Positions 1,028 to 23,013 of a DNA stretch of 23,112 nt are shown in pieces. The position numbers and the translations under genes are program-made. The stretch is from a virus, in the IMG/VR virus record IMGVR_UViG_3300005577_000088, positions 1 to 23,112 of that record, one strand, 5' to 3'. The notes under the pieces were generated by a model that made no database searches, was not told where the DNA came from, and saw only the letters and a list, made by a program, of their open reading frames with translations. Within the stretch, counting starts at the first letter, position 1. The number at the start of each line of letters is the position of its first letter.

Positions 1028-1031
<4 letters not shown>
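645..1031 (-). CDS. Phage fibre-tail adaptor-like protein
   Basis: A 128-residue protein starting at GTG (1029-1031), which overlaps the stop of the collagen-C1q gene as GTGA. The longer reading to 1115 is rejected because it would lie inside that gene and adds an arginine-rich shadow segment. The C-terminal part (about residues 50-128: [20 protein letters not shown], then [20 protein letters not shown]) follows the pattern of the small Ig-like beta domain often annotated as phage fibre-tail adaptor. In that family a W-x-x-WL segment is followed by an SGG turn and a final beta-strand pair. Its place directly after the fibres fits a role in joining fibres to the virion. The family match is from memory of the pattern. 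Confidence 0.6.
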
Positions 1032-2568
<1,537 letters not shown>

Positions 2569-2569
<1 letters not shown>

Positions 2570-4019: not shown

Positions 4020-4963
4020 CAACGAAGCCCTATGATCGGATAGCCGTTGGTGAACGAAAACGTCGCCGCTGAATTCGCCGTGTAGTCGTCGTTGCCCGTG
4101 AGATCGGGGAAATCACCTTCGTCGAAGGTGGCGTCGTAGGTGAGATTGTGCAGCAGCCTTTCCCAGCCGCTCGACGTGCAGCGGAGACCGAGTGTCTGAA
4201 TTGCGTAGCTTCCCGGAAACGATTTGAATTGAAGGTCCGTGCCGCACCAGATTGCGAGATAGTAAGGCTTCGGCGAGAGCGCAGCGCTGATCGTGACCGT
4301 CATCAGGTCCATGACCGGCACGAGGTTGCCGCTGTCCACGACGGGGACCGTCGGGTGCATTTCTTCGTCGCAGTCATAAATTCCTAGCCGAAATCTCGCC
4401 GCAGGATCAGCCTGATACGACTGGATGGCGAGCTTCGTGTAGACGCGCCCGTACGGAATAAAGACAGGAATGAGGGTGATCACATCCGGCGACACGATGG
4501 TCGTGCCGAGCGGGATGTTCGGCCCAGTCGGCATGACCAGATACGTGTTCGCGTCGGCGTAGAGCGGCACGCCGATGCCGGCGATGTTGCCCGCACCGAG
4601 CGGACCGACTGGTCCGGCCGGACCCGTTGGTCCTGTCGCGGGACCGTCTATGCCTGTCGCGCCGACAACACCCGTTGGCCCCGTCGGACCGGTGTAGCCG
4701 ATCGCACCTTGCTCGCCGGTCGGGCCTATCGGGCCGGCGCCGAACGGGCCTGTCTGTCCGGTTGCTCCCGTCGGACCGGTGGCGCCGTCTTCTCCTGCAG
4801 GGCCGGTCCCCATCGGGCCGGTCGGTCCGGTGTACCCCGTCGGCCCCGTGAGAGACACATCGCCTTGCGCGCCGGTTGGGCCCGTCGGACCGAAGCCGGG
4901 CCCGGTGGGGCCGCCGACGACCCGAACCGGCTTCGCATAGATGATGGTTGGCCCGTCTGTCAT
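4019..4963 (-). CDS. Collagen-like fibre, 314 residues, head domain family A
   Basis: Residues 18-125 are Gly-X-Y collagen with GPTGPTG, GATGPTG and occasional charged triplets such as GEDG and GEQG. Residues 126-314 form a head domain shared with the next upstream fibre. Matching landmarks are [14 protein letters not shown] here and [14 protein letters not shown] there, [10 protein letters not shown] and [10 protein letters not shown], and a C-terminal DLTG followed by IGLR or IGIR. The ATG at 4961-4963 overlaps the upstream stop as ATGA. The shared head indicates a tandem duplication followed by strong divergence, which is common for receptor-binding proteins under host-range selection. The fold is probably a beta-sandwich; no enzymatic motif is seen. 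Confidence 0.83.
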
Positions 4964-5922
4964 CGGATACCGATCAGGAAATTGGAATTGCTGTCGACGA
5001 GGGTCTTACCAGTAAGGTCCGGCAGGGGAGAACTAAAACTTGCACCGCCGGTGTAGTTGCGCGCGACGATGTTCGTCGACCACTGTTCGGCAGTTGCTGG
5101 CGGGTAGCGTTTCCAGCCCAGCACCGGAAGGATTTGCGCGCTGTTGAGGGCGCGGAAATTGTGACCGAACTCGACTTCCAGCGCCAGATAGTACGGCTTT
5201 GCGGCCAACGCGACGCTCATCACCGCGCTCATGCGCCCCGCGCCGATCGGCGTCATCGCGCCGCTGTCAAACGCAACCGTCGTCGGCTGCATGTTTTCGT
5301 CGCAGTTGTAAATTCCCATGCGCATGCGTACCGACGGCAGGCGCGCACTCTGGCTCTCGCATACGATCTGCGTATAGGTGCGCGCGAACGGCACGAACAC
5401 GGGCGAGAGCGCGATCGCTCCGCTCGCCAAGGCGCCGTACCCCCACGAAGAACTGCCCGCTATGGGCGTCATCGGCGAAACCAAGAACGCTTCGCTGTCG
5501 CCGAAGAACGGCACGATCGTCCCGCCGACATTGCCCGTCCCCGTGAGCCCGGTCGTACCGGTTATCCCTCGCGGCCCTCCGCCTCTGCCCTGCGCACCCG
5601 TGCGGCCCATCGGACCTGTATTGCCCGTGGGGCCGTCCAGCCCTTGGTCGCCGGCGTAACCTGTGGGGCCGAGCGTGTCGCTGTTGCCGCGAGGCCCTGT
5701 TGCTCCGCGCGGACCGGTCACACCGGTTGCCTTCGAAGCACCGGTCGGGCCCGTCGCGCCCATCTCGCCTTGCACGCCAGTCACGCCGGTCGGACCAGTC
5801 GGCGCGCGTGCGCCAGTCGGACCAGTCGATCCGGTTATATTAGACACGGGGCCGGTGGCCCCCGTGATCGCTATCGACGGAAGTTGGTAGACACGCGCAG
5901 GATCATCGCGCGTGATCGTCAT
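4960..5922 (-). CDS. Collagen-like fibre, 320 residues, head domain family A
   Basis: Residues 21-130 form the collagen region, more irregular than in the long fibres, with breaks around residues 37-41 and 61-67 and more Arg ([10 protein letters not shown]). Residues 131-320 are a head domain homologous to that of the following gene: the motifs [41 protein letters not shown] and a final FLIGIR align well by eye. The ATG at 5920-5922 overlaps the stop of the large beta-helix protein as ATGA, so the two are probably translationally coupled. It is the first of five collagen genes in a row. A role as a trimeric tail or head fibre is inferred from the collagen region and the context. Confidence 0.83.
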
Positions 5923-9199: not shown

Positions 9200-10585
<1,386 letters not shown>

Positions 10586-10975: not shown

Positions 10976-11619
10976 CGCTGCGTCGTCGGGTGAACGTTGA
11001 ACGTGCTCACTCCGCCCTTCTGACTTCTGGTCCGGAATGTCTGCGGGAAGGCCCACGCCTGCGCGCCGACGGTGTTGGCTTTGGTGGCGGCGACGCGTGC
11101 GTGCGCGCAACGATCGCGGAATTTCAGGAGATGGTAGTTCGCCATCTGCGTGTTGCTGTAGCTCTGCCCCGGCATCAGCATCATGCTGCCGATCAGGCCG
11201 TGCTGGATGCCGACGCCATGGGTCGGCAGCACCCAGTCCGGGATGTAGGGCGGGTAGCAGCACAGCGGATCGTTGACGGTTTTGACCACCGTCGCCTGCA
11301 TCATTTGTGCCTGCGTGTATGGAAACTGAAACCGCACGGAGCCGACGTCCGGCATGATCGCCGCCTGCACGGTGCCGTACTGGTCGACCACATGGAGAAG
11401 CCGCAGGACGCGCCCTTGCGCGGGATAGAGCTTGTAGTCCTGCGCTTCCGGGACGACCTGAACCGGCAGCGTCTCGGTCCAGCAATTGGAGAGATCGAAA
11501 AACTGTTCGAGCGTCTCATAAAGCTGCACGCGCAGTTGCGCTTTCGAGACACCAGACAGATGCGCTTGAGCTTGCCCGAAAAGTTTCCGCCAGTAGTTGT
11601 CGCTCTTTTTCGCGGTCAT
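10972..11619 (-). CDS. Head-tail connector/adaptor-like protein, 215 residues
   Basis: A 215-residue protein that starts at the ATG 11617-11619, overlapping the upstream stop as ATGA. The N-terminus has MTAKKSDNYWRKLFGQAQAH, followed by an alpha-helical segment (AQLRVQLYETLEQFFDLSNC) and then beta-rich segments with Y-LYPAQGRVLRLLHVVDQYG. This pattern, a helical start followed by DY-LYP and R-L-V, is familiar from phage adaptor or tail-accessory proteins located between the capsid and the fibre genes. Methionine-rich HGLIGSMMLMPG lies in the second half. I do not know a named family with certainty. Gene order (DUF6682-like adaptor, this protein, Ig-like adaptor, fibre) supports a neck or connector role. 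Confidence 0.6.
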   Translation of the reverse strand: MTAKKSDNYWRKLFGQAQAHLSGVSKAQLRVQLYETLEQFFDLSNCWTETLPVQVVPEAQDYKLYPAQGRVLRLLHVVDQYGTVQAAIMPDVGSVRFQFPYTQAQMMQATVVKTVNDPLCCYPPYIPDWVLPTHGVGIQHGLIGSMMLMPGQSYSNTQMANYHLLKFRDRCAHARVAATKANTVGAQAWAFPQTFRTRSQKGGVSTFNVHPTTQR

Positions 11620-12065
11620 CGACGTTCCTTACGGCCTTGCGGCGGCGAGCCGCCCTGCACGGGGCCAATGCCATGGCCGATGAGCCCGGTGGTAAACATT
11701 CCCAAAAAAGACGACGCGCGGCTGTCTTGAACATCTTCTTGATCGCGTTCAAGCGCGTGCGCGCAGAGCCCGTGCAGGACAGCGAGCCGGAATTGCGGCT
11801 CGATATCGACTGGCGTGTCGTCGACTTCCTCAAACGATTGGACCTGCCCGTCGAAATTATTCCAGACGAACAGGTCCGGACGCAGGCGGGAAGTTTCGAG
11901 CATCGTGATGTTGAGCGCCACCAGCATGGACGGATCGTCGTAGCGGTAAGGCGCGATGGTGTCCTGAAGCAGCGTGCGCGCGTCGGCGACGTAGTCCGAC
12001 ACCTTGCGCAGCGTGGGCTGGTCTTCGTCGGTGAAATTGCCGTGGTATGAGGGGGTAACAGCCAT
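11616..12065 (-). CDS. Head-tail adaptor-like protein (DUF6682-like), 149 residues
   Basis: The start is the ATG at 12063-12065, preceded by GGAG at a good distance; a longer frame to 12101 would start without a ribosome site and adds an arginine-rich piece. The protein opens MAVTPSYHGNFTDEDQPTLR and continues with VSDYVADARTLLQDTIAPYR, MLVALNITMLETSRLRPDLF and FRLAVLHGLCAHALERDQED. I recall this layout from small adaptor proteins annotated as DUF6682 in podovirus-like phages. They resemble gp6-type head-tail connectors: mostly helical, with a conserved aspartate/glutamate-rich second half. It is the first gene of the third minus-strand block, lying 40 bases downstream of a CtrA-type box. Confidence 0.65.
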   Translation of the reverse strand: MAVTPSYHGNFTDEDQPTLRKVSDYVADARTLLQDTIAPYRYDDPSMLVALNITMLETSRLRPDLFVWNNFDGQVQSFEEVDDTPVDIEPQFRLAVLHGLCAHALERDQEDVQDSRASSFLGMFTTGLIGHGIGPVQGGSPPQGRKERR

Positions 12066-12104
12066 TACGCGCTCCGATCGCGGCCGAAGCGTACGGACCA
12101 AAAC

Positions 12105-12120
12105 TTAAGAAAGGCTTAAC
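12105..12120 (+). promoter_or_regulatory. CtrA-type full site TTAA-N7-TTAAC, head of tail operon
   Basis: The sequence TTAAGAAAGGCTTAAC matches the alphaproteobacterial CtrA full-site consensus exactly as read on the plus strand; the TTAA half-sites also read on the minus strand. It lies 40 bases ahead of the start of the DUF6682-like adaptor gene, the first gene of the tail block. A start of transcription near 12080 would place the site around -32, the usual activating position. No clear -10 box is visible. Confidence 0.6.
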
Positions 12121-12133
12121 CTACGCAGCGAGG

Positions 12134-12163
12134 CTCTCAACGCCGTTTGCACAGCGTTGAGAG
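12134..12163. terminator. Perfect 10-bp hairpin after the capsid block, possible terminator
   Basis: CTCTCAACGC, a 10-base loop, then GCGTTGAGAG. The hairpin lies 17 bases past the stop of the 79-residue gene and just before the CtrA-type box of the next block, where a terminator or RNA-stabilising element would be expected. Neither side has an immediate run of T, so a classical intrinsic terminator is uncertain. Confidence 0.4.
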
Positions 12164-12179
12164 ATGTCGCGAAGGTCGT

Positions 12180-12419
12180 TCAGCCGGTGGCGCCGGACGT
12201 ACCGGTGCCGAGCGCCAAGAGATTGCCGAGCGCGCCGCCGGTCGCGTAATACTGACTGATGGCGGAGCCGCTCGCGTGAGCCGCCGTGTAGAGTTGCCCC
12301 CACACACCGGCGGTCGCGTTGTACTGGTTGAGCGCGGTTGCGTTCAACCCGAACTCGTTGGCCAACGCCTTGGCGACGCCGCCAGCTGCGTACTGGTCGA
12401 GAGTTGGGTTTACGGCCAT
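12180..12419 (-). CDS. Small Ala/Gly-rich protein downstream of capsid, 79 residues
   Basis: This 79-residue protein follows the major capsid gene by six bases (ATG at 12417-12419). It is rich in Ala, Gly, Asn and Thr, with no cysteine, lysine only at position 18 and recurrent NATA-, YATGGAL-like segments: LNQYNATAGVWGQLYTAAHA and AISQYYATGGALGNLLALG look like two divergent copies of one unit. A hydrophobic, weakly repetitive protein immediately after the capsid gene could be a capsid decoration or internal head protein, but I do not recognise a family. Its ribosome-binding region overlaps a short dyad containing the capsid stop codon. Confidence 0.6.
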   Translation of the reverse strand: MAVNPTLDQYAAGGVAKALANEFGLNATALNQYNATAGVWGQLYTAAHASGSAISQYYATGGALGNLLALGTGTSGATG

Positions 12420-12432
12420 GGACTATTAGTCC
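12420..12432. promoter_or_regulatory. 13-base dyad at capsid stop codon
   Basis: GGACTATTAGTCC is a perfect dyad around one central base. It contains the TAA stop of the major capsid gene and ends directly at the ATG of the 79-residue gene. As RNA only a 4-pair stem is feasible, so any effect on translation of the downstream gene would be weak; coincidence is possible. Confidence 0.25.
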
Positions 12433-13436
12433 CCGTTCGCCACGATGGCCTGCACCAGCGCGCTGCTGTCCACGATCTGGTAACCGTAGACCTGCAGGCC
12501 GCGCAGGATTTGGCCAAACGTGAGTTCGGACCGCAGCGTCTCCACCTTGCTGATCTGCGAGGCGAAGGTGAGCCCGTGGGCGTGCCCCGCGTAGATCGGC
12601 TGTTCGCCGGACGAGAGGTTGGTGCTGTCCGTCGAGTTCGTCGGCAGCAGGTTGGAGATGTAGAGCGTGAACCGGTCGATCATGCCGAGCCGGCCGTTGC
12701 GCAGCATCGACACGCTGTCGCCCGACAGATACGCCTGACGGAGCTCCGACTGCTTGATCATGCGGCCTGCCCAAGCAGGCATCACGATCCAGCGGCCTTC
12801 TTCCGGGATGTTCTGTTCGTCGAGGCACTGACCCATGCGCAGGATCAGGTCGATCAGGTTGACGTCGCCGCCCGAGGCGCCCGAGCCGACGATCGACACC
12901 GGGGTGCCCTTGACGCCGAGGTTCAGGTTGCCCGAGAGGACGCCGGCGGTTGCGCCGCGGTTGGTCGAGGCGGCGCCGCCGATGATGCTGCCGAGCACGT
13001 CACGATCGACGGTGATCTTCAGCTGCTGCGCGGCGTCATCCGACCACATCGACAGGACGTTGAGGTCGGACTGAACTTCCATCACGTCGTCGAGGATCAG
13101 CGAGAAATACTTGCCGATGCCGATGTAGAGCTCAACGGAGCCGCCCGACGGACGATCGAGACCGAGCAGACCGTCGGCCTTGTAGTCGCGGATGGTGATG
13201 GTGGGCTTGGTCCGGATTTTCACCCGGTCGCCCATGTTCTGGATTTCGCCTTCGTAGTCGGTGTTCGAGATCGCCGCGAGAACGGTCGATGCGTAGAACT
13301 TTTCGACCAGCTTGGCCGACCAGATTTCCGGGATGAAGCCCGTCGACTGGAGGGTGTTCGCGGTCGAGCCGGCCGGGGTCAGCGGCGGCAGAGAGCCCGA
13401 CGTTGCGCCGGGAAAACCCGAGGAAGGAATGGTCAT
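12426..13436 (-). CDS. Major capsid protein, 336 residues
   Basis: A 336-residue protein starting at the ATG 13434-13436 (MTIPSSGFPGATSG...). The TTG-start reading that adds four residues is not needed. Typical features of the HK97-fold capsid proteins of podovirus-like phages are seen: GFIPEIWSAKLVEKFYASTV near the N-terminus, then NTDYEGEIQNMGDRVKIRTK, a loop segment TIRDYKADGLL, the spine-helix region and a late WIVMPAWAGRMIKQSELR. The last third (TFASQISKVETLRSELTFGQ followed by ILRGLQVYGYQ) is also standard for the family, reflecting the final P-domain strands. The length suits a T=7 class capsid subunit without extra domains. It directly follows the scaffold-like gene, and a stem-loop covers its ribosome site. 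Confidence 0.88.
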   Translation of the reverse strand: MTIPSSGFPGATSGSLPPLTPAGSTANTLQSTGFIPEIWSAKLVEKFYASTVLAAISNTDYEGEIQNMGDRVKIRTKPTITIRDYKADGLLGLDRPSGGSVELYIGIGKYFSLILDDVMEVQSDLNVLSMWSDDAAQQLKITVDRDVLGSIIGGAASTNRGATAGVLSGNLNLGVKGTPVSIVGSGASGGDVNLIDLILRMGQCLDEQNIPEEGRWIVMPAWAGRMIKQSELRQAYLSGDSVSMLRNGRLGMIDRFTLYISNLLPTNSTDSTNLSSGEQPIYAGHAHGLTFASQISKVETLRSELTFGQILRGLQVYGYQIVDSSALVQAIVANGD

Positions 13437-13438
13437 GC

Positions 13439-13461
13439 GTAGCCCCAAGGTGTGGGGCTAC
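13439..13461 (-). promoter_or_regulatory. Stem-loop covering the capsid gene ribosome site
   Basis: On the minus strand GTAGCCCC, a 7-base loop and GGGGCTAC form a perfect 8-pair stem that ends two bases before the capsid ATG. The only plausible ribosome-binding bases (GGGG) lie in the 3-prime arm. The structure could regulate translation, stabilise the messenger or act as a processing site. Confidence 0.5.
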
Positions 13462-13488
13462 ACGAGCGTGACGCGGCAGCCCCGGTTG

Positions 13489-14547
13489 TTAGCGGATGCG
13501 CCCTTCGCGACCTGCAGCGATGATGTCCACTTCGAGGCGGGCCCATTCGGCCTCACGGCCAACGTAGGCTCCTCTACGTTTGTGCTCATACAGCGATGCG
13601 ATCTGGGGGCGGGTGTAAATGGGCTTGTCGGGCTGGATGTGGCTATCGCCGCCACCAGCTGGGACGCCCTTACCCGGTGCCGCCAAGGAAGCCAGTGGGA
13701 CTGCCGGGGCTCTCGGTGGCTCTGGTCGAGCGACGGGAGCGGGCGGCGTGGCTGCGATGTGGCCCGTAGCTGCTTCCTCATTGAGGAAGCTCTTGAAGAA
13801 CGAGATGACACGGGGGGCAGAGCCGGCCGCGATAGCTTCGTCCAACAGTCGTTGTCTAACACGTCCGGAGAGAAGGTCAATACCCATCAGCCAGCGATGC
13901 CAGCGAGGATCGTTGTCGATCTCTCTAAAATTTGGAACTGCCACTTCGATCGCCATGTCCATGGCGACTTTGCTTTGGTTCGCGAGACGACGACGCAGTT
14001 CGGCGTTCTGTTCTTCGAGCGACTGCACCACCGGTGCGACGACCTGCTGCGCGGCGCGCTGCGCGACGTCGAGTAATTCCGGACCGAAAGCCTCTTCGTC
14101 TTTCGGCGTCAAAAACTGCTTCGGCGCCGGCGGGGCTTCGCGTCGCGGCTTCGGCTGGCGCTGTGCGCGCTGGTGCTGCGCCACCTCGCGGTAATAGTCC
14201 TCCTGCAGCTGCCCGAGGTCTTGCCGCGTGGCGTGCAAACGACCTTCGGCGGTGAGCGCGCGCTCCTTCCAGTTCACGTCTTCCGCCGGCGGTGCTGCAG
14301 GCGGTTCGGTAGGAGCCGCCGCAGGCGCAGCAGGTGCTGCGGGCTCTGCTACTGCCTGCGGCGGGGTAGGAACTGGCGCTAGGGACGCCGGCTCCGCAAC
14401 AGGCGACGCCGCGGTCGGCGGAGCGTCACCCGAAGGACTGTAAAGCGCGTCGACCGCCGCGGCGCGTGCGCGCACAGCCGGCGGAATTGTGTTCGGATCG
14501 ATCGGCGCCTGCTGGCGCGGCTTGGCGTCAACTACGATTTCTACCAT
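13489..14547 (-). CDS. Capsid scaffolding-like protein, 352 residues
   Basis: A 352-residue protein with a Pro/Ala-rich, probably disordered N-terminal half (about residues 35-90). A helical central part follows (WKERALTAEGRLHATRQDLG, LEEQNAELRRRLANQSKV) that should form a coiled coil. The C-terminal third is more structured (VPNFREIDNDPRWHRWLMGI, RLLDEAIAAGSAPRVISFFK) and the end is basic (YVGREAEWARLEVDIIAAGR). Low complexity, coiled coil and a location immediately upstream of the major capsid gene are the usual signs of a scaffolding protein. The ribosome site AGGGG precedes the ATG at 14545-14547. Scaffold proteins diverge too much in sequence for certainty; identification rests on composition and position. 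Confidence 0.65.
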   Translation of the reverse strand: MVEIVVDAKPRQQAPIDPNTIPPAVRARAAAVDALYSPSGDAPPTAASPVAEPASLAPVPTPPQAVAEPAAPAAPAAAPTEPPAAPPAEDVNWKERALTAEGRLHATRQDLGQLQEDYYREVAQHQRAQRQPKPRREAPPAPKQFLTPKDEEAFGPELLDVAQRAAQQVVAPVVQSLEEQNAELRRRLANQSKVAMDMAIEVAVPNFREIDNDPRWHRWLMGIDLLSGRVRQRLLDEAIAAGSAPRVISFFKSFLNEEAATGHIAATPPAPVARPEPPRAPAVPLASLAAPGKGVPAGGGDSHIQPDKPIYTRPQIASLYEHKRRGAYVGREAEWARLEVDIIAAGREGRIR

Positions 14548-14556
14548 CGTTCACCC

Positions 14557-14769
14557 CTATTTCACCTTTTGTACATCGTTGAACAATCTCGACAGTTTCA
14601 TGCACATCTGCGCCTTGCCTTGCGCCGCGTGCACGTTCCCCTCTGTCTGCGCGAGCTCCGTCAGTTTCCCCAATGTGTAGCGTTCAAACGCAGCACAAAA
14701 CTCGCCGTACTGCTGCGGCGCGGCGTTGCGCATGAAGCGCAGGCGCTGTGTAAGATCGTCGTCGGTCAA
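14557..14769 (-). CDS. Small helical protein upstream of scaffold, 70 residues, TTG start
   Basis: This 70-residue protein appears to begin at TTG (14767-14769), overlapping the preceding stop as TTGA; the next ATG, at 14733, would remove 12 residues. I prefer TTG because the segment TDDDLTQRLRFMRNAAPQQY reads like the N-terminus of small helical phage proteins in this location. The remainder, GEFCAAFERYTLGKLTELAQ followed by VHAAQGKAQMCMKLSRLF, has the look of a short two-helix protein with an AQG-AQ-C-KL pattern that I recall near capsid or packaging genes. Function unknown. Confidence 0.6.
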   Translation of the reverse strand: MTDDDLTQRLRFMRNAAPQQYGEFCAAFERYTLGKLTELAQTEGNVHAAQGKAQMCMKLSRLFNDVQKVK

Positions 14770-14984
14770 ATGTCGTCTGCGTCGCCATCGCCGAGCATCA
14801 TCGGGTCGGCAGGCGCCGCCGGTGAGGACTTGGCGTAATTTCCGGGAAGTCGGAATGCATCCGCGCCGGTCACGGCATCTGCGTTGCTGGACGATGTCTC
14901 GCGCGCGCCCTTGCCGCGCTGCACCGTGACACCACCCTTGCCGATCGGCGTGAGGTCTTTCTTGAACGGGCCTTTACGTGCCAT
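14766..14984 (-). CDS. Small basic/acidic hypothetical protein, 72 residues
   Basis: The ATG at 14982-14984 overlaps the end of the 74-residue gene by 11 bases. The N-terminus is strongly basic and glycine-containing (MARKGPFKKDLTPIGKGGVT, QRGKGARET); the middle is Ser/Ala-rich and the end acidic (MMLGDGDADDI). It lacks hydrophobic core segments and is probably disordered. With the two preceding genes it shares GKGG motifs, which suggests a set of related small internal head or assembly proteins. No family recognised. Confidence 0.6.
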   Translation of the reverse strand: MARKGPFKKDLTPIGKGGVTVQRGKGARETSSSNADAVTGADAFRLPGNYAKSSPAAPADPMMLGDGDADDI

Positions 14985-15198
14985 AGGGCTTCAATCCTCC
15001 AAAGCCGACGCCTGCTCCGCGCTCGCTGCCCGTGTCGGGGACGCCGGAAAGCGGCGTGCCGCCCTTGCCGTAGTCGCGGGTGCTGACGGGGCGGATGCGC
15101 GGCGCGGCCATCACGGCCTTGGACGGGTCGGCCATCTTGGGGCGGCCCGTCTGCCCGGGGGCGGAGAGTGGCGCCGGTGCTTTGGGCAGCCGGGGCAT
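14974..15198 (-). CDS. Small Gly/Pro-rich hypothetical protein, 74 residues
   Basis: The ATG at 15196-15198 overlaps the preceding stop as TGATG. The protein is rich in Pro, Gly and basic residues (MPRLPKAPAPLSAPGQTGRP, RDYGKGGTPLSGVPDTGSER, GFGGLKPYGT) and is unlikely to fold alone. The segment YGKGGTPLSG resembles the FAKGG-T units in the preceding gene, so the two may have a common origin. The second of four small genes between a CtrA-type box and the scaffold gene. Possibly an internal virion protein; function unknown. Confidence 0.6.
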   Translation of the reverse strand: MPRLPKAPAPLSAPGQTGRPKMADPSKAVMAAPRIRPVSTRDYGKGGTPLSGVPDTGSERGAGVGFGGLKPYGT

Positions 15199-15425
15199 CA
15201 GCGCGCGCTCGTGCGGCCCGCCTGCTGCGGCTCTGCGCCATGGAAGCCGAACATCTTGTTCGTGCCGCCCTTGGCGAACGAGGCGCCCTTGCCGGTCGCG
15301 CCCGGATCGCCGGTCTGACCGGACTTCATCGGTTCGGCCTGCTGCTCACTGAACATCGGCGTGTCGCCACCCTTGGCGAACTCGACGTTGTGCTGGGCCT
15401 CTTTGGTCTTCGACGGCGCGACCAT
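15198..15425 (-). CDS. Small protein with tandem FAKGG motif, 75 residues
   Basis: The ATG at 15423-15425 is preceded by AGAGGA at a distance of seven bases. The protein carries two copies of one unit: FAKGGDTPMFSEQQAEPMKS then FAKGGTNKMFGFHGAEPQQA, each followed by a G-Q/R-T end. Short FAKGG-MF proteins of this kind occur, as I recall, near the capsid genes of many phages of Gram-negative bacteria, mostly annotated hypothetical. It is the first gene of the capsid block and lies 60 bases past a CtrA-type box. A small DNA- or capsid-associated virion protein is possible. Confidence 0.65.
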   Translation of the reverse strand: MVAPSKTKEAQHNVEFAKGGDTPMFSEQQAEPMKSGQTGDPGATGKGASFAKGGTNKMFGFHGAEPQQAGRTSAR

Positions 15426-15485
15426 GGAAAATCCTCTCAGTGGAGCCTGTCTGGAAAGCTATCTCTTCTGACGTAGAGCTAAACC

Positions 15486-15501
15486 GTTAAGGAAAAATTA
15501 A
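15486..15501 (-). promoter_or_regulatory. CtrA-type full site TTAA-N7-TTAAC, head of capsid operon
   Basis: On the minus strand CTTAATTTTTCCTTAACGG contains TTAA, seven bases and TTAAC, an exact match to the CtrA full site. It lies 60 bases ahead of the first gene of the capsid block and includes the TAA stop of the upstream coiled-coil gene. The distance leaves room for a start of transcription about 30 bases downstream and for the AGAGGA ribosome site. Confidence 0.6.
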
Positions 15502-15848
15502 GGGTCCGGCGGGTACTCGCGGTCGATACCGCGACGACCTTGGATGAAGCCGTCACCGTGACGCAATTCGCGGATGTCCTGTTCGGTTGCTGAAAGGCGG
15601 GCGGCAAGCACGCGTATCTCGCCGCGGATATCGGCGAGGTTAACCAAAATGTCGCCGAGTTTCTTTATCTCGACCTGCATCGAGTTGAGCTCTAGCTTGA
15701 GCGCCGCCGAGCCGAGCTTGAGCGTACCGACGTCGTGCTTCATCGTGATCAACACCAGCAGCCCGCCGCCGATAATTGCGGCAATTTCGATCATGTTGCC
15801 GATGGTGATCGTGTAATCGAGTGTCAACATTCCAAGCGTTCCGCTCAT
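15498..15848 (-). CDS. Membrane-anchored coiled-coil protein (spanin-like?), 116 residues
   Basis: The start is the ATG at 15846-15848, overlapping the holin-like gene stop as ATGA; the longer frame to 15956 is a shadow. One transmembrane segment (about residues 18-36: MIEIAAIIGGGLLVLITMK) is followed by a long heptad-like region (about 40-95: KLELNSMQVEIKKLGDIL, EIRVLAARLSATEQDIRE) and a charged C-terminal tail. This arrangement is typical of inner-membrane spanin subunits and of other small lysis or assembly proteins. The position as last gene of the lysis cassette supports an inner spanin, but no partner lipoprotein gene is seen, so this remains tentative. Confidence 0.65.
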   Translation of the reverse strand: MSGTLGMLTLDYTITIGNMIEIAAIIGGGLLVLITMKHDVGTLKLGSAALKLELNSMQVEIKKLGDILVNLADIRGEIRVLAARLSATEQDIRELRHGDGFIQGRRGIDREYPPDP

Positions 15849-16327
15849 TTGCCGACCAGCCGTTTCAGGTTGTCGACGATGCCGCCTGCGGCTGGTCCAC
15901 CCCGCAGCACCACCGCGCCGGCGCCGAACAGAAATGCCAGCAGCAGATACGCCCACTCAACCGTCGAGCCCGACGACGGATACTGGAAATTTGGAACCGA
16001 TTGACGGATCACGAAAACTAAAAACGGCACGCACCATTGGTGCCAGAACAAAACGAATAGCTGGGTGTATACCATCCAGCACCATGCCGTCTGCATCATT
16101 TGCGACGTACGCAGGGTTCCTTGAAAACTTTCAAACGTGCGCGCGGTCAGGTCGGCGTGGGCGGTCTCCACCTTGGTGAAGGAACCAAGAAACGCCTCTT
16201 TGAATTTTTCAGCGAGCTCTGCCTCGCTGATTTTCCTGTCTTGATAGTCTTTCAAGACGCCGCGGATATTGCCGAAGAACGCGTCGAACAGTTTTCCGCC
16301 GAGGGCAGCTGCGATGGCTTCCAGCAT
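15845..16327 (-). CDS. Holin-like protein (GTA holin 3TM type), 160 residues
   Basis: The chosen start is the ATG at 16325-16327, which has AAGGA six bases upstream; the frame to 16354 lacks a ribosome site. The N-terminal half is soluble and helical (about residues 1-80: DAFFGNIRGVLKDYQDRKIS...). The second half has hydrophobic segments at about 84-108 (WCWMVYTQLFVLFWHQW, then FLVFVI) and 126-146 (WAYLLLAFLFGAGAVVL), with a short final basic tail (NLKRLVGK). This resembles the 3TM holin family described from gene transfer agents of alphaproteobacteria. It is flanked by the muramidase and the coiled-coil membrane protein. Best candidate for the holin. Confidence 0.65.
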   Translation of the reverse strand: MLEAIAAALGGKLFDAFFGNIRGVLKDYQDRKISEAELAEKFKEAFLGSFTKVETAHADLTARTFESFQGTLRTSQMMQTAWCWMVYTQLFVLFWHQWCVPFLVFVIRQSVPNFQYPSSGSTVEWAYLLLAFLFGAGAVVLRGGPAAGGIVDNLKRLVGK

Positions 16328-16328
16328 G

Positions 16329-16718
16329 TCAATCCTTGTGCGGTACGCGTTCAATAAAAGAGCGGATGACAGGCATCGCGGCCGCCCCGAGGCGGATGGA
16401 CGTCGTCACCCAGTCAGGCAGGATATAGGCCGACAGGTCGACCCCTGCGATCGCGGGCAGCAAATCCCCCAGCACTTGCGAGGTTAACACTGCGGCGTCG
16501 AGCGCACCGTTCCATAGCGACGGGAACGACACGATCATTCCGGCCGTGACCACGTCCCAACGAACCCTCAACCACGACAGGATGGCGCCGCGGAATTGCT
16601 GGAACTCAGGACGGTCTTTAATACGCGGGCGCACCATGAGAAAGTAAAAAATCAGGGTGGCGACCGTGACCAAAATCCAGATGACGGTCTGCGGCTTGCT
16701 GATGAATGTAATTTCCAT
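16329..16718 (-). CDS. Small membrane protein in lysis cassette, 129 residues
   Basis: This 129-residue protein starts at 16716-16718, one base after the muramidase stop. The N-terminus is a strong transmembrane segment (about residues 12-29: VIWILVTVATLIFYFLMV) followed by a basic cytoplasmic-type patch (RPRIKDRPEFQQF). Further moderately hydrophobic stretches lie at about 58-75 and 80-115. No enzymatic motif is seen. Sitting between the muramidase and the 3TM holin-like gene, it may be an accessory holin, antiholin or pinholin-like protein. Assigned only by position and topology. Confidence 0.6.
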   Translation of the reverse strand: MEITFISKPQTVIWILVTVATLIFYFLMVRPRIKDRPEFQQFRGAILSWLRVRWDVVTAGMIVSFPSLWNGALDAAVLTSQVLGDLLPAIAGVDLSAYILPDWVTTSIRLGAAAMPVIRSFIERVPHKD

Positions 16719-16719
16719 G

Positions 16720-17427
16720 TCATGCTCCCTTTTTGAGCAAGGATAAAAATGCTTCCAGCAAGCCTTTGGGCTTTGCGTTCGGCGGCGCGGTGGCTGGTTT
16801 CGCCGCCGGTGCCGGGACAGTTGCCGGGTTGTACGGCGTGTCCTTGATTTTCGACCAGCGTTCGAACGCGCGTTTCAATTTGCCGTCGTAGTCGTTCTGG
16901 CGGTAGTTCGCGCCGTTGTAGCCTTGCGCGAACCGCGCCCAATCCTTCATCCGCAACGCCCGGTCCAGCCCCTTGCTCTTGATGAAGCGGATCATCGCTT
17001 CAAGCTGGTTGGCTTCGTCCTTGCAGAAGTCCGCCACCATGGCCTGCGGCGACAGATAGCCGGCGGCCTGATAGTTCTCGCCGAGAATTTGCCCGAGGCC
17101 CCATGAGCACGCTTTCAGCGCCGCGGTCTCGTCGATCTCCATGGCCCGCAGCAGGCGCGGATAGCTGTCAGGCGGATATTCGCCCGGCCGCCACTGCGAG
17201 TAGGCGAGCCCCTGCGAGACCGCCGCTGCACGCTTGTCCTGCGGCAGGCAGCGGAAGAACACATGCGGCTCGAACAGCATCTTCAGCCGGCCTTGGCGGT
17301 CAAAGCCCGAGCCCGAGCTCTCCACGTCGAGCACCGCGTGGATTTCGTCCTCGCCGACGCCGATCAACGCGCCAATCCGCGGGATGTCGTAGTCGTCGAG
17401 CCGTTTGCCCGAGCCCTGAAAGTTCAT
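16720..17427 (-). CDS. Endolysin, N-acetylmuramidase family, 235 residues
   Basis: The start is the ATG at 17425-17427, overlapping the previous stop as ATGA; the open frame to 17697 is a shadow. Residues 10-190 match the N-acetylmuramidase family (PF11860-type): AVLDVESSGSGFDRQGRLKM with the probable catalytic Glu36, LFEPHVFF, the helix-turn SWGLGQILGENYQAAGY (about 108-124) and FAQGYNGANYRQNDYDGKL near the end. The enzyme should cut the glycan strands of peptidoglycan at lysis. Residues 200-221 form a Pro/Ala linker, and the last 14 residues (GLLEAFLSLLKKGA) form an amphipathic helix that may help it reach or disturb the outer membrane. There is no signal peptide, so holin-dependent release is expected. 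Confidence 0.85.
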   Translation of the reverse strand: MNFQGSGKRLDDYDIPRIGALIGVGEDEIHAVLDVESSGSGFDRQGRLKMLFEPHVFFRCLPQDKRAAAVSQGLAYSQWRPGEYPPDSYPRLLRAMEIDETAALKACSWGLGQILGENYQAAGYLSPQAMVADFCKDEANQLEAMIRFIKSKGLDRALRMKDWARFAQGYNGANYRQNDYDGKLKRAFERWSKIKDTPYNPATVPAPAAKPATAPPNAKPKGLLEAFLSLLKKGA

Positions 17428-18092
17428 GACCGCACTCCCATGTAGTTGGTGAATAAAGTCTGGTCGTGGTCGGCGGCGTACCACCACAGTGGAAATTCCG
17501 GATTGCGCTCTTCGAGCCGGGCGAGCGTGTTCACTTCCCACGACACGTTGCCGGTTTCTTCGATCCAGCGGACGTACTCGTTCTGCATGGCGTCGTTGAA
17601 CTGCACGACGTATTTCTTGGGGACGACCATCACCCCGCCGCAAAACCTCCAGCATGGATGGTTGTCGTCGTAGGTATACGTTCCTTTTGGCCAGCAACCG
17701 GGGATGGTCACCGCGCGCTCGCCTTCAGCGCGGGCTAAAAAGTCGTCTATAATTTTCGCGGTGACGCCCGGTACGTGGAAAATACCGGCGTCGATCCAGA
17801 CGAACACGTCTGTTTTCGGGTATTCCACCCACGCCTTCTCGATCCATTGCGTCTTTTGCGCCTGCACGATGTGATACCCGAGCGTGTTCTTCGCCGGATT
17901 GTCAGACACCGAGTGCGTGCAGGACTGTTCGCTGTTGCACAGGTACTGATGCAGCCAGCATTCTTCGAGTTCGGGTTTGTAGAGCAGCACGCTGTGCTCG
18001 ATGTTGAACAGCTTGCGGACAAGCTGTTCGTACTCCCGCTTGGGCCGCGGGTGGTTCGGGAGCTCGACGTATCCGGTTACGACGGTGATCAT
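17424..18092 (-). CDS. Glycosyltransferase-like protein (HtrL/YibB-like), 222 residues
   Basis: This 222-residue protein starts at the ATG 18090-18092, immediately after the stop of the large glycosyltransferase gene. The first strand MITVVTGYVELP is Rossmann-like; KTDVFVWIDAGIFHVPG (about residues 93-109) has the D-A-G form of a nucleotide-sugar site, like the W-x-D-A-G motif of HtrL/YibB-type proteins. Near the end EVNTLARLEERNPEFPLWWY is followed by AADHDQTLFTNY, similar to the C-terminal active-site region of that family. Probably a soluble GT-A type transferase. Substrate unknown. Together with the upstream gene it forms a two-gene glycosylation module between portal and lysis genes. Confidence 0.6.
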   Translation of the reverse strand: MITVVTGYVELPNHPRPKREYEQLVRKLFNIEHSVLLYKPELEECWLHQYLCNSEQSCTHSVSDNPAKNTLGYHIVQAQKTQWIEKAWVEYPKTDVFVWIDAGIFHVPGVTAKIIDDFLARAEGERAVTIPGCWPKGTYTYDDNHPCWRFCGGVMVVPKKYVVQFNDAMQNEYVRWIEETGNVSWEVNTLARLEERNPEFPLWWYAADHDQTLFTNYMGVRS

Positions 18093-20069
18093 CTAGTCCT
18101 CCAGCGTGAACCGGACGACTTCGTCGGCGTCCATAATCGCGAGCCGTGCCTCGCAATCGCGCACGCCATACGAGATGACGATCTCTTTGCTGTCCGGCAG
18201 ATACCCGAGCCCGGCAGCGAACTCGATTTCCTTCGCGTGGAAACAGAACGGATGCGAGAGCGCGTGGAGGTTTTTGTCTTCCCGGAACAGCGCGAACCGG
18301 TGTCTGTAATAGCGCTTCGGCTGGCCGGGGATTTGCCCGGCCTCGTGCACGATCGCGAGTTTTCTCCCCTCGCCGATGTCGACCACTTGCGAACCGCCGC
18401 TGACGTTGCCAACATCCCATTGCTGCGGATGGTCAACGACGAATTTTCCATCGGTGTCGATCAATGCCCCGAGACGATAGACGAACCGCAGGTCGTTACC
18501 TTCGACCCATGGCATCCAGTTTTTCTCGTTCCGCCGGTGCTCTGGCAGGATACGTTTCCAGTTGTTTCCGTATCGCCATCGACCATTCTCGTTCACCAGC
18601 GGTGCAAGAACTTGCTCGCACCATCCTTCACGGTTCAGCTGCCGCACAGTCGAGAGCGTCCAGAAATCACCGCGCCACTTAAAAAGACGGCTGTCTTCAA
18701 AGCCGTGGACGAGGTCCCATTCCATCGGCCAGTTTTCGGAGGGCATAAGAATTTCTTCCCAGCCGCCATCCCGCCGGTCGATGAAATTGCGGGTCTTGAT
18801 CGGATGGTCGAACTCGCTGACTGATCCGTCTTCGTTGTTGATCATGTAGCGGCCGTCGACGATCGAGTAGTTCACCGTCCGGACCAGCGTGCGCGCTCTC
18901 CCGTCTTCGTCGACGAACACGGAAGGGTTCATCGCCTTGTAGCCGGCGGGAGGCGTGAACGAATACTTCTCGGACGTAAAAGACGGCACGAAGGTCTTCA
19001 GCGGCTCCAGATACCAGTAGAGGTTTCCTCTCGCCTGCTGCGAGCCTTCGAGCGACAGCATCGCCGCAACCTTGGCGCCTTCGGCCCGATGCTTGTTGTC
19101 GTAGCCCGCGCAGATCGCGAACTCTTCCCGCAGGCCCGTCCGGTAGACTTCCTCGTTGACGAACAGGAGATCGCCCGGCCGCTTGAGCTTCATCCCCATC
19201 GTCGAGAACAGCAGCGACGTCTTCTGGCGGTCGGGCTTCTCGCGGTAAAACCGCGCAAGGTCGTAGAGCGCCTCCGCGCGCGAAGGCCGCATCTCGTAGG
19301 CTTTGAGCATGTGGTGGACGTAGGCAGGCTCGTCGTCCATCTTCAAAAGACAGTAAGCGTACTTGACCTGCGCGTTCCAGACTTCCTCGTCCCAGCCGCC
19401 GAGCTCGACGCGGCGCTTGTAGAACGCGGCCGCCGTACCCCATTCGCCGCCGTCGAAATAAGACTGCGCCAAATAGAACGTGTAGCGCTGCACCAGCCCC
19501 GGGTCTTTTTCCGTTGCGAGCGCCTTGGTCAGAAGATCGATGTCGCGCTTGTACTTGTCCGGCCGGTTGGCGCCGTCGGCGTGGTCGACGAAGTACGCCG
19601 CGTCTTCCGGAATGATCGGGCCGGCGACGTCGAGATACTCGTGCGTGACGCCGCGATATTTGCCGGTGGCGTCCTTGCTCACCAGCCGCATGTTGAAGTA
19701 GCCGATCGTGCCGCCGGCGAACTGTTTCATGTTGTAGCCGGGCGCCGTGAGGCCGACGTCCCACTCGCCCTTGCGAACGACGAGCTCCATGTCGGCGTCG
19801 CACAACAGAAGATAGTCCCACGGCAGCTTGCTCGCGCGCGCGAGCTTCAGCGCCTGATTGCGCGCCTGCTCGAAGTTCTCGAACGGTGCGTGGCCGATCT
19901 CAAGCGGCTTGCCGGCTTCCTTGAAAAGGCTGGTCAGCTTGACCAGCGTGTCGTCGGTTGACCCGGTATCGACGATGATGGCGCCGGCGATCTGCGGCAG
20001 CAGGCTCTTAACGCAACGTTCGATGCGCGCGCCCTCGTTCTTGACGATGGCGTTCCAGAAAAGTTTCAC
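18093..20069 (-). CDS. GT2 glycosyltransferase fused to TPR-like and GH130-like domains, 658 residues
   Basis: The start is GTG (20067-20069) with a strong AAGGGGG ribosome site seven bases upstream. Residues 1-150 are a family 2 glycosyltransferase: NAIVKNEGARIERCVKSL, IIVDTGSTDDT (31-41) and the metal-binding DAD at 91-93. Residues about 175-340 are helical and TPR-like (RYTFYLAQSYFDGGEWGTAA, AEALYDLARFYREKPDR). Residues about 375-658 resemble a five-bladed GH130-like propeller, with NPSVFVDEDG, HGFEDSRLFKWRGDFW (455-470), NEKNWMPWVEGNDLRFVY, HEAG (575-578) and SYGVRDCEARLAIMD near the end. A single chain could therefore add and trim or phosphorolyse sugars. It sits between the portal and the second glycosyltransferase. 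Target (virion fibres or host envelope) unknown. Confidence 0.8.
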   Translation of the reverse strand: MKLFWNAIVKNEGARIERCVKSLLPQIAGAIIVDTGSTDDTLVKLTSLFKEAGKPLEIGHAPFENFEQARNQALKLARASKLPWDYLLLCDADMELVVRKGEWDVGLTAPGYNMKQFAGGTIGYFNMRLVSKDATGKYRGVTHEYLDVAGPIIPEDAAYFVDHADGANRPDKYKRDIDLLTKALATEKDPGLVQRYTFYLAQSYFDGGEWGTAAAFYKRRVELGGWDEEVWNAQVKYAYCLLKMDDEPAYVHHMLKAYEMRPSRAEALYDLARFYREKPDRQKTSLLFSTMGMKLKRPGDLLFVNEEVYRTGLREEFAICAGYDNKHRAEGAKVAAMLSLEGSQQARGNLYWYLEPLKTFVPSFTSEKYSFTPPAGYKAMNPSVFVDEDGRARTLVRTVNYSIVDGRYMINNEDGSVSEFDHPIKTRNFIDRRDGGWEEILMPSENWPMEWDLVHGFEDSRLFKWRGDFWTLSTVRQLNREGWCEQVLAPLVNENGRWRYGNNWKRILPEHRRNEKNWMPWVEGNDLRFVYRLGALIDTDGKFVVDHPQQWDVGNVSGGSQVVDIGEGRKLAIVHEAGQIPGQPKRYYRHRFALFREDKNLHALSHPFCFHAKEIEFAAGLGYLPDSKEIVISYGVRDCEARLAIMDADEVVRFTLED

Positions 20070-20089
20070 TGATTTCCCCCTTCATGATG

Positions 20090-22396
20090 TCAGCCCGGCC
20101 CTCCGACGGGGCCCGGCAGGCGTTGGCCGGGTTGCGGGGGCTTGCGCTGGTTTCCAACGACGTCGACGCCCATGGCTGGGGCGTTGTTCATCGGTGATGC
20201 TTGGTTGCCTTGCGCCTGTCTTGCGTCGCGATCCATTGCACCGGACGGAGGGCCGGGGGGGTTTCCGTCCATTCCGCCCGGTGCAGGGGGTTGGGGTGAG
20301 CCGCCCCCCTCCTCCGGCATCGACGCCCTCGACGCCAGAAAGCCGGTGGTGAGTTCTTTGGTGATGCCCTGAACACCGAGCTCGACACCCTTCTGGATGC
20401 CTTTGTCGACCTGCTCGCTGATGGCCTTGTTCTGCTGCTCTTCCTGCTGCTTGGCCTGTTTCTTGAGAAGCTCTGCTTCCGACGGAACGACCTTGTCGCT
20501 GGACAGGCCGATCGTGTCGGCAACCGAGCGCAGCACCGAGCCGCGGCCGGCGAGACCGACGATCGACATGTCGACCGGGTTGTTGGTGTGTTGCAGGAAC
20601 TCCAGCTGGCGCTGGCGCTGCGTCTCGCGCTGCACCGCGACCGTGGTGCCCTGCACGTAAAACTTCTCTTCGCCCGTGAGCATCCCGGTCGTGTCGGTGA
20701 GCATCACGAGGTCGCCAAGCTGCTGCAGGGCCACTTCGAAGATGTCGCGGTCGATGTTGGCGGCGACGGTCTGGAGGATTTTGGACGCGTTGCCCATGAG
20801 CATCGCGAGGCCCGACGCGGTGCGGCCGGCGCCGCCCGACGCGCTGCCGCCGACATACTTCGGGATCGCCGAGATGTCGTCGGAGAACTCCACCAGCGCT
20901 TTATAGACGGCGAGCAGTTCCTGCGCGTTCGACTGCGGCTGGAAGAACTCCACCGGCGCCTTGGAGTTGGTGCCGACCGGGTCGTTGGCGGCGTGCCAGC
21001 GCTTCCACGGGAAGAGCTCGTCGACGTTGTCTTCCGGGCGTACGCGGTCGGTGTTGACCACCACTTGCGGACCGGACGCGATCGCCATGTTGTTGAGCAG
21101 CGACCGCAAGGTCGCGTTGGCCGCGTCCTGCAGGTCCGCCATCAGGTCGGAGAGCGAGTTGCCGAGCGGCGTGCCGGGCACTTTCTCGAACGACGTGGTA
21201 AAATAGTTGTGCCGTGCACGGGGGGAAGGCGACAGGTTCGCCTTGATGACATGACGCCCGATCAAATAGACGTCGACCCGGTAGTCACGGAGCTCATCGT
21301 TGACCCCGGGCATACCATAGTCCTGCAAAATCCGGCCTTGAACGTTGCCGTGATATTCCAGCATGGTGATCAGGCCGGACCTGTTCCATGCTGGGTTCTC
21401 ACGACTTTCAAGGGTCGCCCGCTCTGCGTCCGTGGTATCCCAATGCTCGTAGAGCCCGCCACGCCCGTACTCGTCGAGCACGGCCCGAACAGCGTTACGA
21501 TCGTAGCCGGGCAGGTCGAGCAGATCATTGATCTCGGCACGGGTCAGGCGCGACTTCTCGATCACGTCGGCGTTGGCGATGTCGGCGACGCCCGGCGTCC
21601 ACCAGATGTCGAACGGTGACACCCGGGTCCAGAACATCTTCGGTACCTGCTGGACCGTCGGCGGGCCGCCGCCGGGCGGCCACACGACTTCCGGGACGAT
21701 CTTGACCGTCGGGCCCTTGATGCAGGCGAACGGGAAGATCGGCAGGTCGACGATGAACTCCGCCAGCGCGTGGTAGAAGCCGCCTTCCCGGAGATACTCC
21801 TCGATCCGGTCTTCGGCGACCTTGGCCTGCTTGGTGGCCTTTTTCTTCGCCGCTTCGGCCGCGCTCTCAAGCAGCGCCTCGCGCCGCTTGCGCGCACCGT
21901 CCGGGTCCGGCGGGACGCCGGCCTGCATGATCGTCTGCTCCTCGTGCTGGAGCAACGTACCGATCTTCTCCAGCACGTCCGGCGGAATATCCGGGTCGGC
22001 CGGCGGCTTCACCGCCCACGGCCGGTCCTGTCCCAAATAGATGTCGCGCAAAAGAGACGACGCCGCCCGGCATTTCTGGGCGGTGATGCGGGCGTAAATT
22101 TCCGACCCGCCGAATTTCTGCACCTCGCGCAGTTTGTCGGGCGAATACTGGCCGTTGAAGGTCCGCAGCGCCTCGATCAGCCGGCCCGACCAGCCCGCCG
22201 CGGTGTTGCGGTGGTTGCGCATGATCTCGAACTGGGTGCGGACGAAGCCGCCTAGCTCGTCCGGTGGCGACTGTGTATTTTGCGCGTAGGCAGCGGCTTG
22301 CGCCTGCTGCCGCTGTTGAAGCTGCGCTTCCAGCGCCGCCGGCGGGACGACCTGAAGAACACCTTGCTGGTTACCGAGAGGGATCGAAGCGGCCAT
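20090..22396 (-). CDS. Portal protein, 768 residues
   Basis: A 768-residue protein starting at the ATG 22394-22396. It has the features of large podovirus-like portals: FVRTQFEIMRNHRNTAAGWS near the N-terminus, the clip/stem part with MFWTRVSPFDIWWTPGVADI, SRLTRAEINDLLDLPGYDRN, then SLSDLMADLQDAANATLRSL and the segment AIPKYVGGSASGGAGRTASG characteristic of the portal core. Toward the C-terminus are a Glu/Gln/Lys-rich helix (EAELLKKQAKQQEEQQNKAI) and a long Pro/Gly/Met-rich tail (about 700-768). Twelve copies would form the DNA gate at one capsid vertex. It heads the first minus-strand block and diverges from the small-terminase-like gene. Its ribosome site is weak. Confidence 0.9.
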   Translation of the reverse strand: MAASIPLGNQQGVLQVVPPAALEAQLQQRQQAQAAAYAQNTQSPPDELGGFVRTQFEIMRNHRNTAAGWSGRLIEALRTFNGQYSPDKLREVQKFGGSEIYARITAQKCRAASSLLRDIYLGQDRPWAVKPPADPDIPPDVLEKIGTLLQHEEQTIMQAGVPPDPDGARKRREALLESAAEAAKKKATKQAKVAEDRIEEYLREGGFYHALAEFIVDLPIFPFACIKGPTVKIVPEVVWPPGGGPPTVQQVPKMFWTRVSPFDIWWTPGVADIANADVIEKSRLTRAEINDLLDLPGYDRNAVRAVLDEYGRGGLYEHWDTTDAERATLESRENPAWNRSGLITMLEYHGNVQGRILQDYGMPGVNDELRDYRVDVYLIGRHVIKANLSPSPRARHNYFTTSFEKVPGTPLGNSLSDLMADLQDAANATLRSLLNNMAIASGPQVVVNTDRVRPEDNVDELFPWKRWHAANDPVGTNSKAPVEFFQPQSNAQELLAVYKALVEFSDDISAIPKYVGGSASGGAGRTASGLAMLMGNASKILQTVAANIDRDIFEVALQQLGDLVMLTDTTGMLTGEEKFYVQGTTVAVQRETQRQRQLEFLQHTNNPVDMSIVGLAGRGSVLRSVADTIGLSSDKVVPSEAELLKKQAKQQEEQQNKAISEQVDKGIQKGVELGVQGITKELTTGFLASRASMPEEGGGSPQPPAPGGMDGNPPGPPSGAMDRDARQAQGNQASPMNNAPAMGVDVVGNQRKPPQPGQRLPGPVGGPG

Positions 22397-22419
22397 CTCG
22401 ACACCAAAAATGATAAACC

Positions 22420-22435
22420 TTAAGAAAGAATTAAC
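22420..22435 (+). promoter_or_regulatory. CtrA-type full site TTAA-N7-TTAAC in divergent intergenic region
   Basis: TTAAGAAAGAATTAAC is an exact full CtrA site. It lies in the 62-base gap between the divergent portal and small-terminase-like genes, 24 bases from each start. On the portal side a TATCAT sequence (22415-22410 on the minus strand) could serve as -10. Activation at the classical distance would give nearly leaderless messages in both directions, so repression, or control of one side only, is equally possible. Confidence 0.6.
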
Positions 22436-22458
22436 CGGTCACTGCTAGGGGGAGTTGC

Positions 22459-23013
22459 ATGGCACCCGACCTCGATGAAAGCACTCTGGCGAAACTCGCG
22501 CGCGAGATCGTCATGAACATCAGGAACTACAAAGAGACCTTCGAGACCTTCGGCATCACCGAAGAGGACTACTACGAGATCGAGAAGAACGAGTTCTTCA
22601 AGAAGGTCAAAGAGCAGTTCGCGATCGAGTGGAACGCGACGACGTCGACGTCCGAGCGGCTGAAAGTCGGCGCCATGGCCTATTTCGAGCAGCTGCTGCC
22701 GCGGCTGACCCGGCGCGCGATCGCCGGCGAAGACACGCTGGCCGCCTCGACCGAAGTCGGCAAGCTGCTGATGAAGACCGCCGGCATGGGGGAACAGACC
22801 AAGGGCGAGCCGAACCTCGCCGAGAGGTTCGTCATCACCATCAACATGGGCGGCGACACCGAGAAGTTCGACAAGCCGCTGGATATCACGACGATCGACG
22901 CGCCGGTGCTCACGCCCGCGCCGGCCGCGATCGCAGCGCCTGAAAAGCGCAAACGCGGGCGACCACGGAAGACCTACGATCAGGTCGCAAACATAGGGGG
23001 TCAAAATGGCTGA
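22459..23013 (+). CDS. Small terminase-like protein with AT-hook, 184 residues
   Basis: A 184-residue plus-strand gene with a strong ribosome site (AGGGGGAG) six bases before the ATG. Residues 10-60 form a helical DNA-binding-type segment (LARELVMN-like start, FGITEEDYYEIEKNEFFKKV); residues 60-110 are helical (SERLKVGAMAYFEQLLPRLT, STEVGKLLMKTAGMG); then FVITINMGGDTEKF forms a short beta segment. I recall this layout from small-terminase-like proteins next to portal or large terminase genes. The C-terminus KRKRGRPRK (163-171) contains an AT-hook core RGRPRK. The stop overlaps the next start. If correct it recognises the packaging site and recruits the large terminase, whose gene should follow on the right. 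Confidence 0.6.
   Translation: MAPDLDESTLAKLAREIVMNIRNYKETFETFGITEEDYYEIEKNEFFKKVKEQFAIEWNATTSTSERLKVGAMAYFEQLLPRLTRRAIAGEDTLAASTEVGKLLMKTAGMGEQTKGEPNLAERFVITINMGGDTEKFDKPLDITTIDAPVLTPAPAAIAAPEKRKRGRPRKTYDQVANIGGQNG

Follow-up and report, generated by a model that had tools for sequence, protein, structure and literature searches.

CtrA-type boxes at the heads of the late operons in a group of uncultured phages that encode a CtrA-like protein of their own

Background

CtrA is the master cell-cycle regulator in many alphaproteobacteria. A phage fragment with full CtrA-type sites ahead of its structural genes raises the question of whether those sites are promoters of the late operons and, if so, whether the host's CtrA or a protein of the phage itself binds them. 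The fragment analyzed here, referred to as the window, is a complete IMG/VR record of 23,112 bases and is linear. It belongs to a large, uncultured and widespread group of phages from soil. The nearest isolate is Rhizobium phage RHph_TM3_14A, with a capsid protein 66% identical to that of the window phage, and the hosts of the nearest isolates are Rhizobium. A capsid scan of genome contigs, in which a prophage would point to a host, found no relatives, and plasmid searches gave no matches. Within 385 alphaproteobacterial genomes no lysogen of the phage family was found, with three distant matches only.

Three boxes and the genes behind them

A search of the whole window for TTAA-N7-TTAAC gave exactly three matches, at 12105-12120 (+), 15486-15501 (-) and 22420-22435 (+), and no further TTAA-N7-TTAA lacking the final C was present anywhere in it. 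The first-pass annotation had reported three full CtrA sites and no other paired site, which the search confirms; 0.02-0.04 would be expected, and three was never attained by any shuffle. All three boxes are intergenic, that at 15487 adjoining the upstream gene's stop codon, and they are dispersed over 10.3 kb with one per operon. An abundance of sites within genes, which the annotation had named as evidence against its proposal, was not found, the majority of sites being intergenic. Protein families likewise bear out that each site heads a late operon, namely portal/terminase, scaffold/capsid and tail.

The first box, TTAAGAAAGAATTAA (22420..22434, no strand assigned), lies between divergent genes. 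Leftward is the gene for an SU10-type portal protein (20090..22396, minus strand), the first of the portal/lysis operon. Rightward is a phrog_36773 gene (22459..23013, plus strand) in the position of the gene that precedes the terminase large subunit in RHph_TM3_14A. The annotation had placed this site ahead of the portal/lysis block, which is correct as far as it goes, but the terminase side has to be added; being situated between divergent genes, the box is able to serve both. At 11 bp from the box there is a rightward -10-like TAGGGG (22446..22451, plus strand), while the leftward -10 position, at the same distance, holds a weak TTTGGT (22403..22408, minus strand).

The second box, TTAATTTTTCCTTAA followed by C at 15486 (15487..15501, minus strand), precedes the scaffold/capsid block, with a -10-like TACGTC 11 bp away (15470..15475, minus strand). 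The first gene of the block (15198..15425, minus strand) starts at 15425, and the operon includes the major capsid protein (phrog_267; 12426..13448, minus strand). The third, TTAAGCCTTTCTTAA (12105..12119, minus strand), precedes the tail block and has a -10-like TACGCT at 11 bp (12088..12093, minus strand), located within the 5' arm of a hairpin. For the first tail-block gene (phrog_23601; 11616..12065, minus strand) the ATG at 12065 was preferred over a TTG at 12101.

Other regions of the window carry additional features. Collagen-like genes rich in GPTGPTG repeats occupy 1028-5922 and 9200-10576; they are probably tail fibre genes and probably duplicates of each other. In the late operon, the interval between portal and endolysin (17424-20069) contains two genes, one for a family 2 glycosyltransferase (18093-20069) and another at 17424-18092.

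Spacing and conservation among relatives

More than 400 relatives were identified in IMG/VR by capsid search, of which 80 loci (916 kb) were retained. Across these loci TTAA-Nn-TTAA occurs 61 times with a spacer of 7, and 0-8 times with each other spacer from 0 to 20. A TA lies 27 bases from the box start in 31 of 87 oriented sites, whereas other offsets give 0-9, mostly 0-3. In a grid of spacers 5-9 against gaps 6-17, spacer 7 with gap 11 alone was prominent (47 exact vs 0-8), and the full TTAA-N7-TTAA-N11-TAnnnT was found 37 times in relatives vs 0 in Markov sequence. The counts include near-identical copies of some loci and thus overstate the number of independent events; the promoter-like sites collapse to 82 distinct ones. 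The pattern was replicated in 56 other loci found via a different gene, with 42 vs 0-8 for spacer 7 and 32 vs 0-9 for gap 11.

Three slots are common to the relatives: the portal/terminase gap, the position before small pre-scaffold genes, and the position immediately after the capsid gene. The slot of the 22420 box is also occupied in loci G003, G021, L236, L238, L240, L245, L247, L258 and L261, that of the 15487 box in G003, G021 and many other loci, and that of the 12105 box is kept directly behind the capsid gene. In complete relatives the boxes are dispersed. One promoter consensus, ggcTTAACCATTTCTTAAGaaTT-n-CcTAGnCTCC, recurs in the three slots and includes the CtrA motif TTAACCAT. The likeness of the window spacers noted in the first pass holds when they are oriented along the genes, nnTTTC preceding the second half in two of the three and TTTCC in the remaining one; among relatives the spacer consensus is TTAACCATTTCTTAAG. 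As spacer and flanks are conserved in relatives, the proposed phage-specific form of the site can be retained in part. Half-sites are degenerate in some sub-groups, and no box was found in the genome of RHph_TM3_14A.

Ordinary sigma-70 promoters were considered as operon starts and set aside, none of consensus type being present above chance at 11.5-23.1 kb of the window; the boxes thus have no -35 rival at the operon heads. In a second sub-group (L016, L017, L022, L024, L036, L042, L045 and L059), a degenerate box such as TAAACCAATGCTTAAG abuts an intrinsic terminator after the capsid gene. The terminator loop seemingly contains the -10, so that terminator and promoter are nested.

Relation to CtrA-activated promoters

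With a -10-like TAnnnT at a fixed 11 bp, the box is placed over the -35 region, as are activating CtrA sites, at about -38 to -24 from the predicted start. In Caulobacter, activating full CtrA sites are found near -35, with that of ctrA P2 at -39 (PMC4287350). The phage promoters share with these the TTAA-N7-TTAA full site, its position over -35 and the fixed distance to the -10. They differ in that the host promoters serve host genes, while the phage boxes serve structural operons and have start codons at leaderless distance on both sides. The same register is visible in bacterial genomes. Gap 11 was enriched in 24 Hyphomicrobiales genomes (53 vs 16 and 21 for gaps 8 and 14), and -10s of CCTAGCCT or similar sequence stand behind such boxes in Bradyrhizobium genomes. 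The upstream regions of ctrA itself, used as a register control, contain few exact N7 sites. Taken as promoters, the window boxes are very likely functional late promoters of the CtrA type, a statement made with high confidence.

Measured from the box ends, the portal ATG (22396) lies 38 nt and the rightward ATG (22459) 39 nt from the 22420 box. In relatives of the window type the portal/terminase box is likewise often 38-39 bases from the start codons on both sides, and many have TA at the -10 offset in both directions. With 6-7 bases between -10 and ATG, both divergent messages would be leaderless, and the rightward mRNA at 22459 may be such a message. A comparable arrangement is known from R. 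sphaeroides, where a single CtrA site serves the divergent fliL2p and fliF2p promoters (PMC6180460), just as one box would serve two promoters here.

The tail slot carries a covarying hairpin (12066..12095, minus strand), the 5' arm of which contains the -10 and the 3' arm the GGAG ribosome-binding site beside the ATG at 12063-12065. In an alignment of 14 sequences its 13 pairs were 96% paired, and 34 cells were changed on both sides vs 8.2 when shuffled and 0-5 when slid. The same slot has a hairpin in L007, L011, L044, L052, L061, L063, L065 and L081, and in another sub-group T runs follow it, giving it a terminator-like look. A transcript from the tail promoter would start in the hairpin loop and have its ribosome-binding site exposed, and in a read-through transcript from the capsid operon the site would be masked. 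It is possible, then, that the hairpin is a translation lock against read-through messages. Gene e of phage T4 follows the same logic, with a hidden ribosome-binding site and a late promoter within the hairpin that silences read-through messages. The pairing of -10 side and ribosome-binding site by which the tail-slot hairpin resembles this class is conserved among relatives and weak in the window's own copy.

A receiver-less CtrA-like protein

A profile built from 76 CtrA proteins matched short frames in relatives of the window phage. The proteins of this family are about 165-215 residues long and combine a helix-turn-helix at the N-terminus with a winged helix of the OmpR type at the C-terminus; Pfam PF00486 (Trans_reg_C) scored above the gathering cut-off in all four factors tested. 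A receiver domain was sought at the N-terminus and is absent, the helix-turn-helix being located there. The family is found in 87 IMG/VR loci and in all 15 records of at least 58.7 kb, and had no match among 50,697 isolate phages at 1e-5. The factor of the window phage itself was located on contig G001 (98.2% identical over 15.7 kb) at 271-783, a gene that maps about 3.5 kb past the right window edge.

Several comparisons relate the factor to CtrA. When the factor profile was run on eight whole alphaproteobacterial genomes, CtrA was the top full-length response regulator in seven; in the eighth a slightly better match was given by a regulator that we take, from its sequence, to be ChvI. The Cys typical of the CtrA recognition helix is present in 44 of 54 distinct factors and in 75 of the 76 CtrA proteins (one was unreadable by pattern), while other regulators have H, S or G where readable. 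Scored as single sequences, 39 of the 54 factors prefer CtrA. For the window's factor the result is a near tie (16.8 bits for CtrA vs 15.7 for other regulators), and its kinship to CtrA, taken alone, is therefore weak. The NCBIfam CtrA model gave the four factors 17-34 bits, against a cut-off of 350, and was the best regulator model for three of them. Being far below that cut-off and having no receiver, the factor was rejected as a CtrA ortholog. An AlphaFold model gave weak matches to OmpR-type domains (SaeR, probability 1.00, E 0.05).

In relatives, the 4 kb upstream of the factor gene contain 25 boxes with spacer 7 vs 1-5 for other spacers, which suggests feedback. RHph_TM3_14A has only a 104-residue version of the factor, truncated and with a changed helix. 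A strict coupling of factor and boxes was considered and is not claimed, given the following exceptions. L304 (IMGVR_UViG_2920053212_000002, 60,155 bases) contains the factor and has no exact box. Roseobacter phage RDJL3 (L334:1378-2217), Paracoccus phage R3 (L336:1078-1878) and Rhizobium phage RHph_X2_30 (L337:1279-1818) encode proteins that carry the annotation 'CzcR-like response regulator' or HTH regulator and match CtrA in their DNA-binding domain (e.g. KIIDVFVCKMRKKL); no TTAA-N7-TTAA was found in the genomes of these three phages. These proteins may act on host CtrA sites.

Two further observations concern the factor gene and its kin. A 143-aa receiver-less CtrA-like frame in L316 (Bradyrhizobium sp. 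Ai1a-2) scores higher with the phage profile than does the CtrA of that genome and may belong to a mobile element. In nine loci (L264, L268, L269, L275, L277, L285, L286, L296 and L312) a conserved element, ggaaata(c/t)ctngg...aaaa...TTAACCTTTTGTTAAGGT, lies 1-3.6 kb upstream of the factor gene; it is likely an early promoter, with a box nearby.

Which protein binds the boxes

From these features we infer how the late promoters would be bound, activated and timed, and which of the two proteins would be decisive. A CtrA-type winged-helix protein would bind the two direct TTAANNNNNNN repeats, with their 11 bp period, at about -38 to -24. The bound protein would replace the -35 contact and recruit the host sigma-70 polymerase to the TAnnnT -10 exactly 11 bp away. 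In the window this would create three units: a bidirectional one for portal and terminase, one for scaffold/capsid and one for tail. The phage factor would be made before the late genes and be active without phosphorylation, and host CtrA~P may occupy these boxes as well, priming or tuning the late promoters. Since it is a core protein that lacks a receiver, resembles CtrA and is linked to the boxes, the phage's own factor is the binder that we somewhat favor, ahead of host CtrA alone. It could activate the late genes irrespective of the cell cycle.

The annotation had proposed that late expression is tied to the host cell cycle or to a motile cell type. As it stands this is not upheld, since nothing in the sequence singles out host CtrA as the binder and the phage family has a CtrA-like DNA-binding protein of its own that lacks a phosphorylatable receiver. 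Cell-cycle coupling of the late genes is nevertheless possible. Host CtrA~P alone might activate the late operons and so couple virion production to its own cell cycle or to motile cells, as in lytic deferment, with the factor acting elsewhere, for example on the host CtrA regulon. Box and register do match host CtrA promoters, and promoters of other alphaproteobacterial phages are bound and regulated by host CtrA (PMC9437464). The box-free genomes of RDJL3, R3 and RHph_X2_30 point the same way, as such proteins may target the host. However, the factor gene belongs to the core of the family and has boxes upstream of it, and boxes are missing from RHph_TM3_14A, which has a degraded factor but a Rhizobium host in which CtrA is to be expected. 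The sites are also single per operon and not clustered as in lytic-deferment phages. On balance we regard action by host CtrA alone as rather unlikely.

Use of the boxes by both proteins, with host CtrA~P having early or stage-dependent access and the phage factor following as competitor or amplifier, appears improbable. Half-site and register are common to both, and through the boxes ahead of the factor operon host CtrA would be able to initiate a positive loop or to gate it, but the sub-groups with degenerate half-sites are a caveat for host CtrA affinity. That AT-rich gaps simply yield TTAA pairs has next to no likelihood: the gaps are AT-richer than genes, yet spacer 7 and gap 11 are specific in two separate locus sets and against shuffles, and these controls refute an artefact of chance or composition.

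In its fullest form the preferred reading, in which the phage factor is the binder, is tentative and falls somewhat short of probable. The factor would be a receiver-less core mimic of CtrA and a constitutive late activator working through CtrA-type promoters. It would thereby decouple virion production from the host cycle and also act on the host CtrA regulon, tail translation being locked by the promoter-containing hairpin.

Comparison with known phage systems

T4 MotA is a phage-made activator that replaces the -35 contact. The logic proposed here is shared with it, the difference being that in the present phages the activator's domain and its site correspond to those of the host's CtrA. 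Phages with CtrA sites have been described before (Mascolo 2022, PMC9437464; also PMC10589892). The alphaproteobacterial phages vB_BsubS-Delta, the PhiCbK group, MMDA13, Palo and Pasto have TTAA-N7-TTAA in promoter regions, as here, but with clustered sites in one region, often beside genes of unknown function, and regulation is by host CtrA (PMC9437464). The present phages, unlike these, have a single box per structural operon, a fixed -10 and their own CtrA-like protein; the three window sites, over 10.3 kb, do not show the clustering of the lytic-deferment phages. PhiCbK also encodes a homolog of GcrA (PMC3556154), likewise a phage relative of a host cell-cycle regulator, but GcrA is not CtrA and a matching late regulon is undescribed.

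No phage-encoded CtrA-like late activator was found in the open-licence literature, and a CtrA-type late regulon together with its own factor looks new. If the proposal is true, a virus has adopted and short-circuited a cell-cycle network by taking a CtrA-like domain minus the phosphorylation switch, and the phage may run the late switch itself instead of awaiting the host cell cycle. The fixed promoter formula would also make such phages recognizable in metagenomes.
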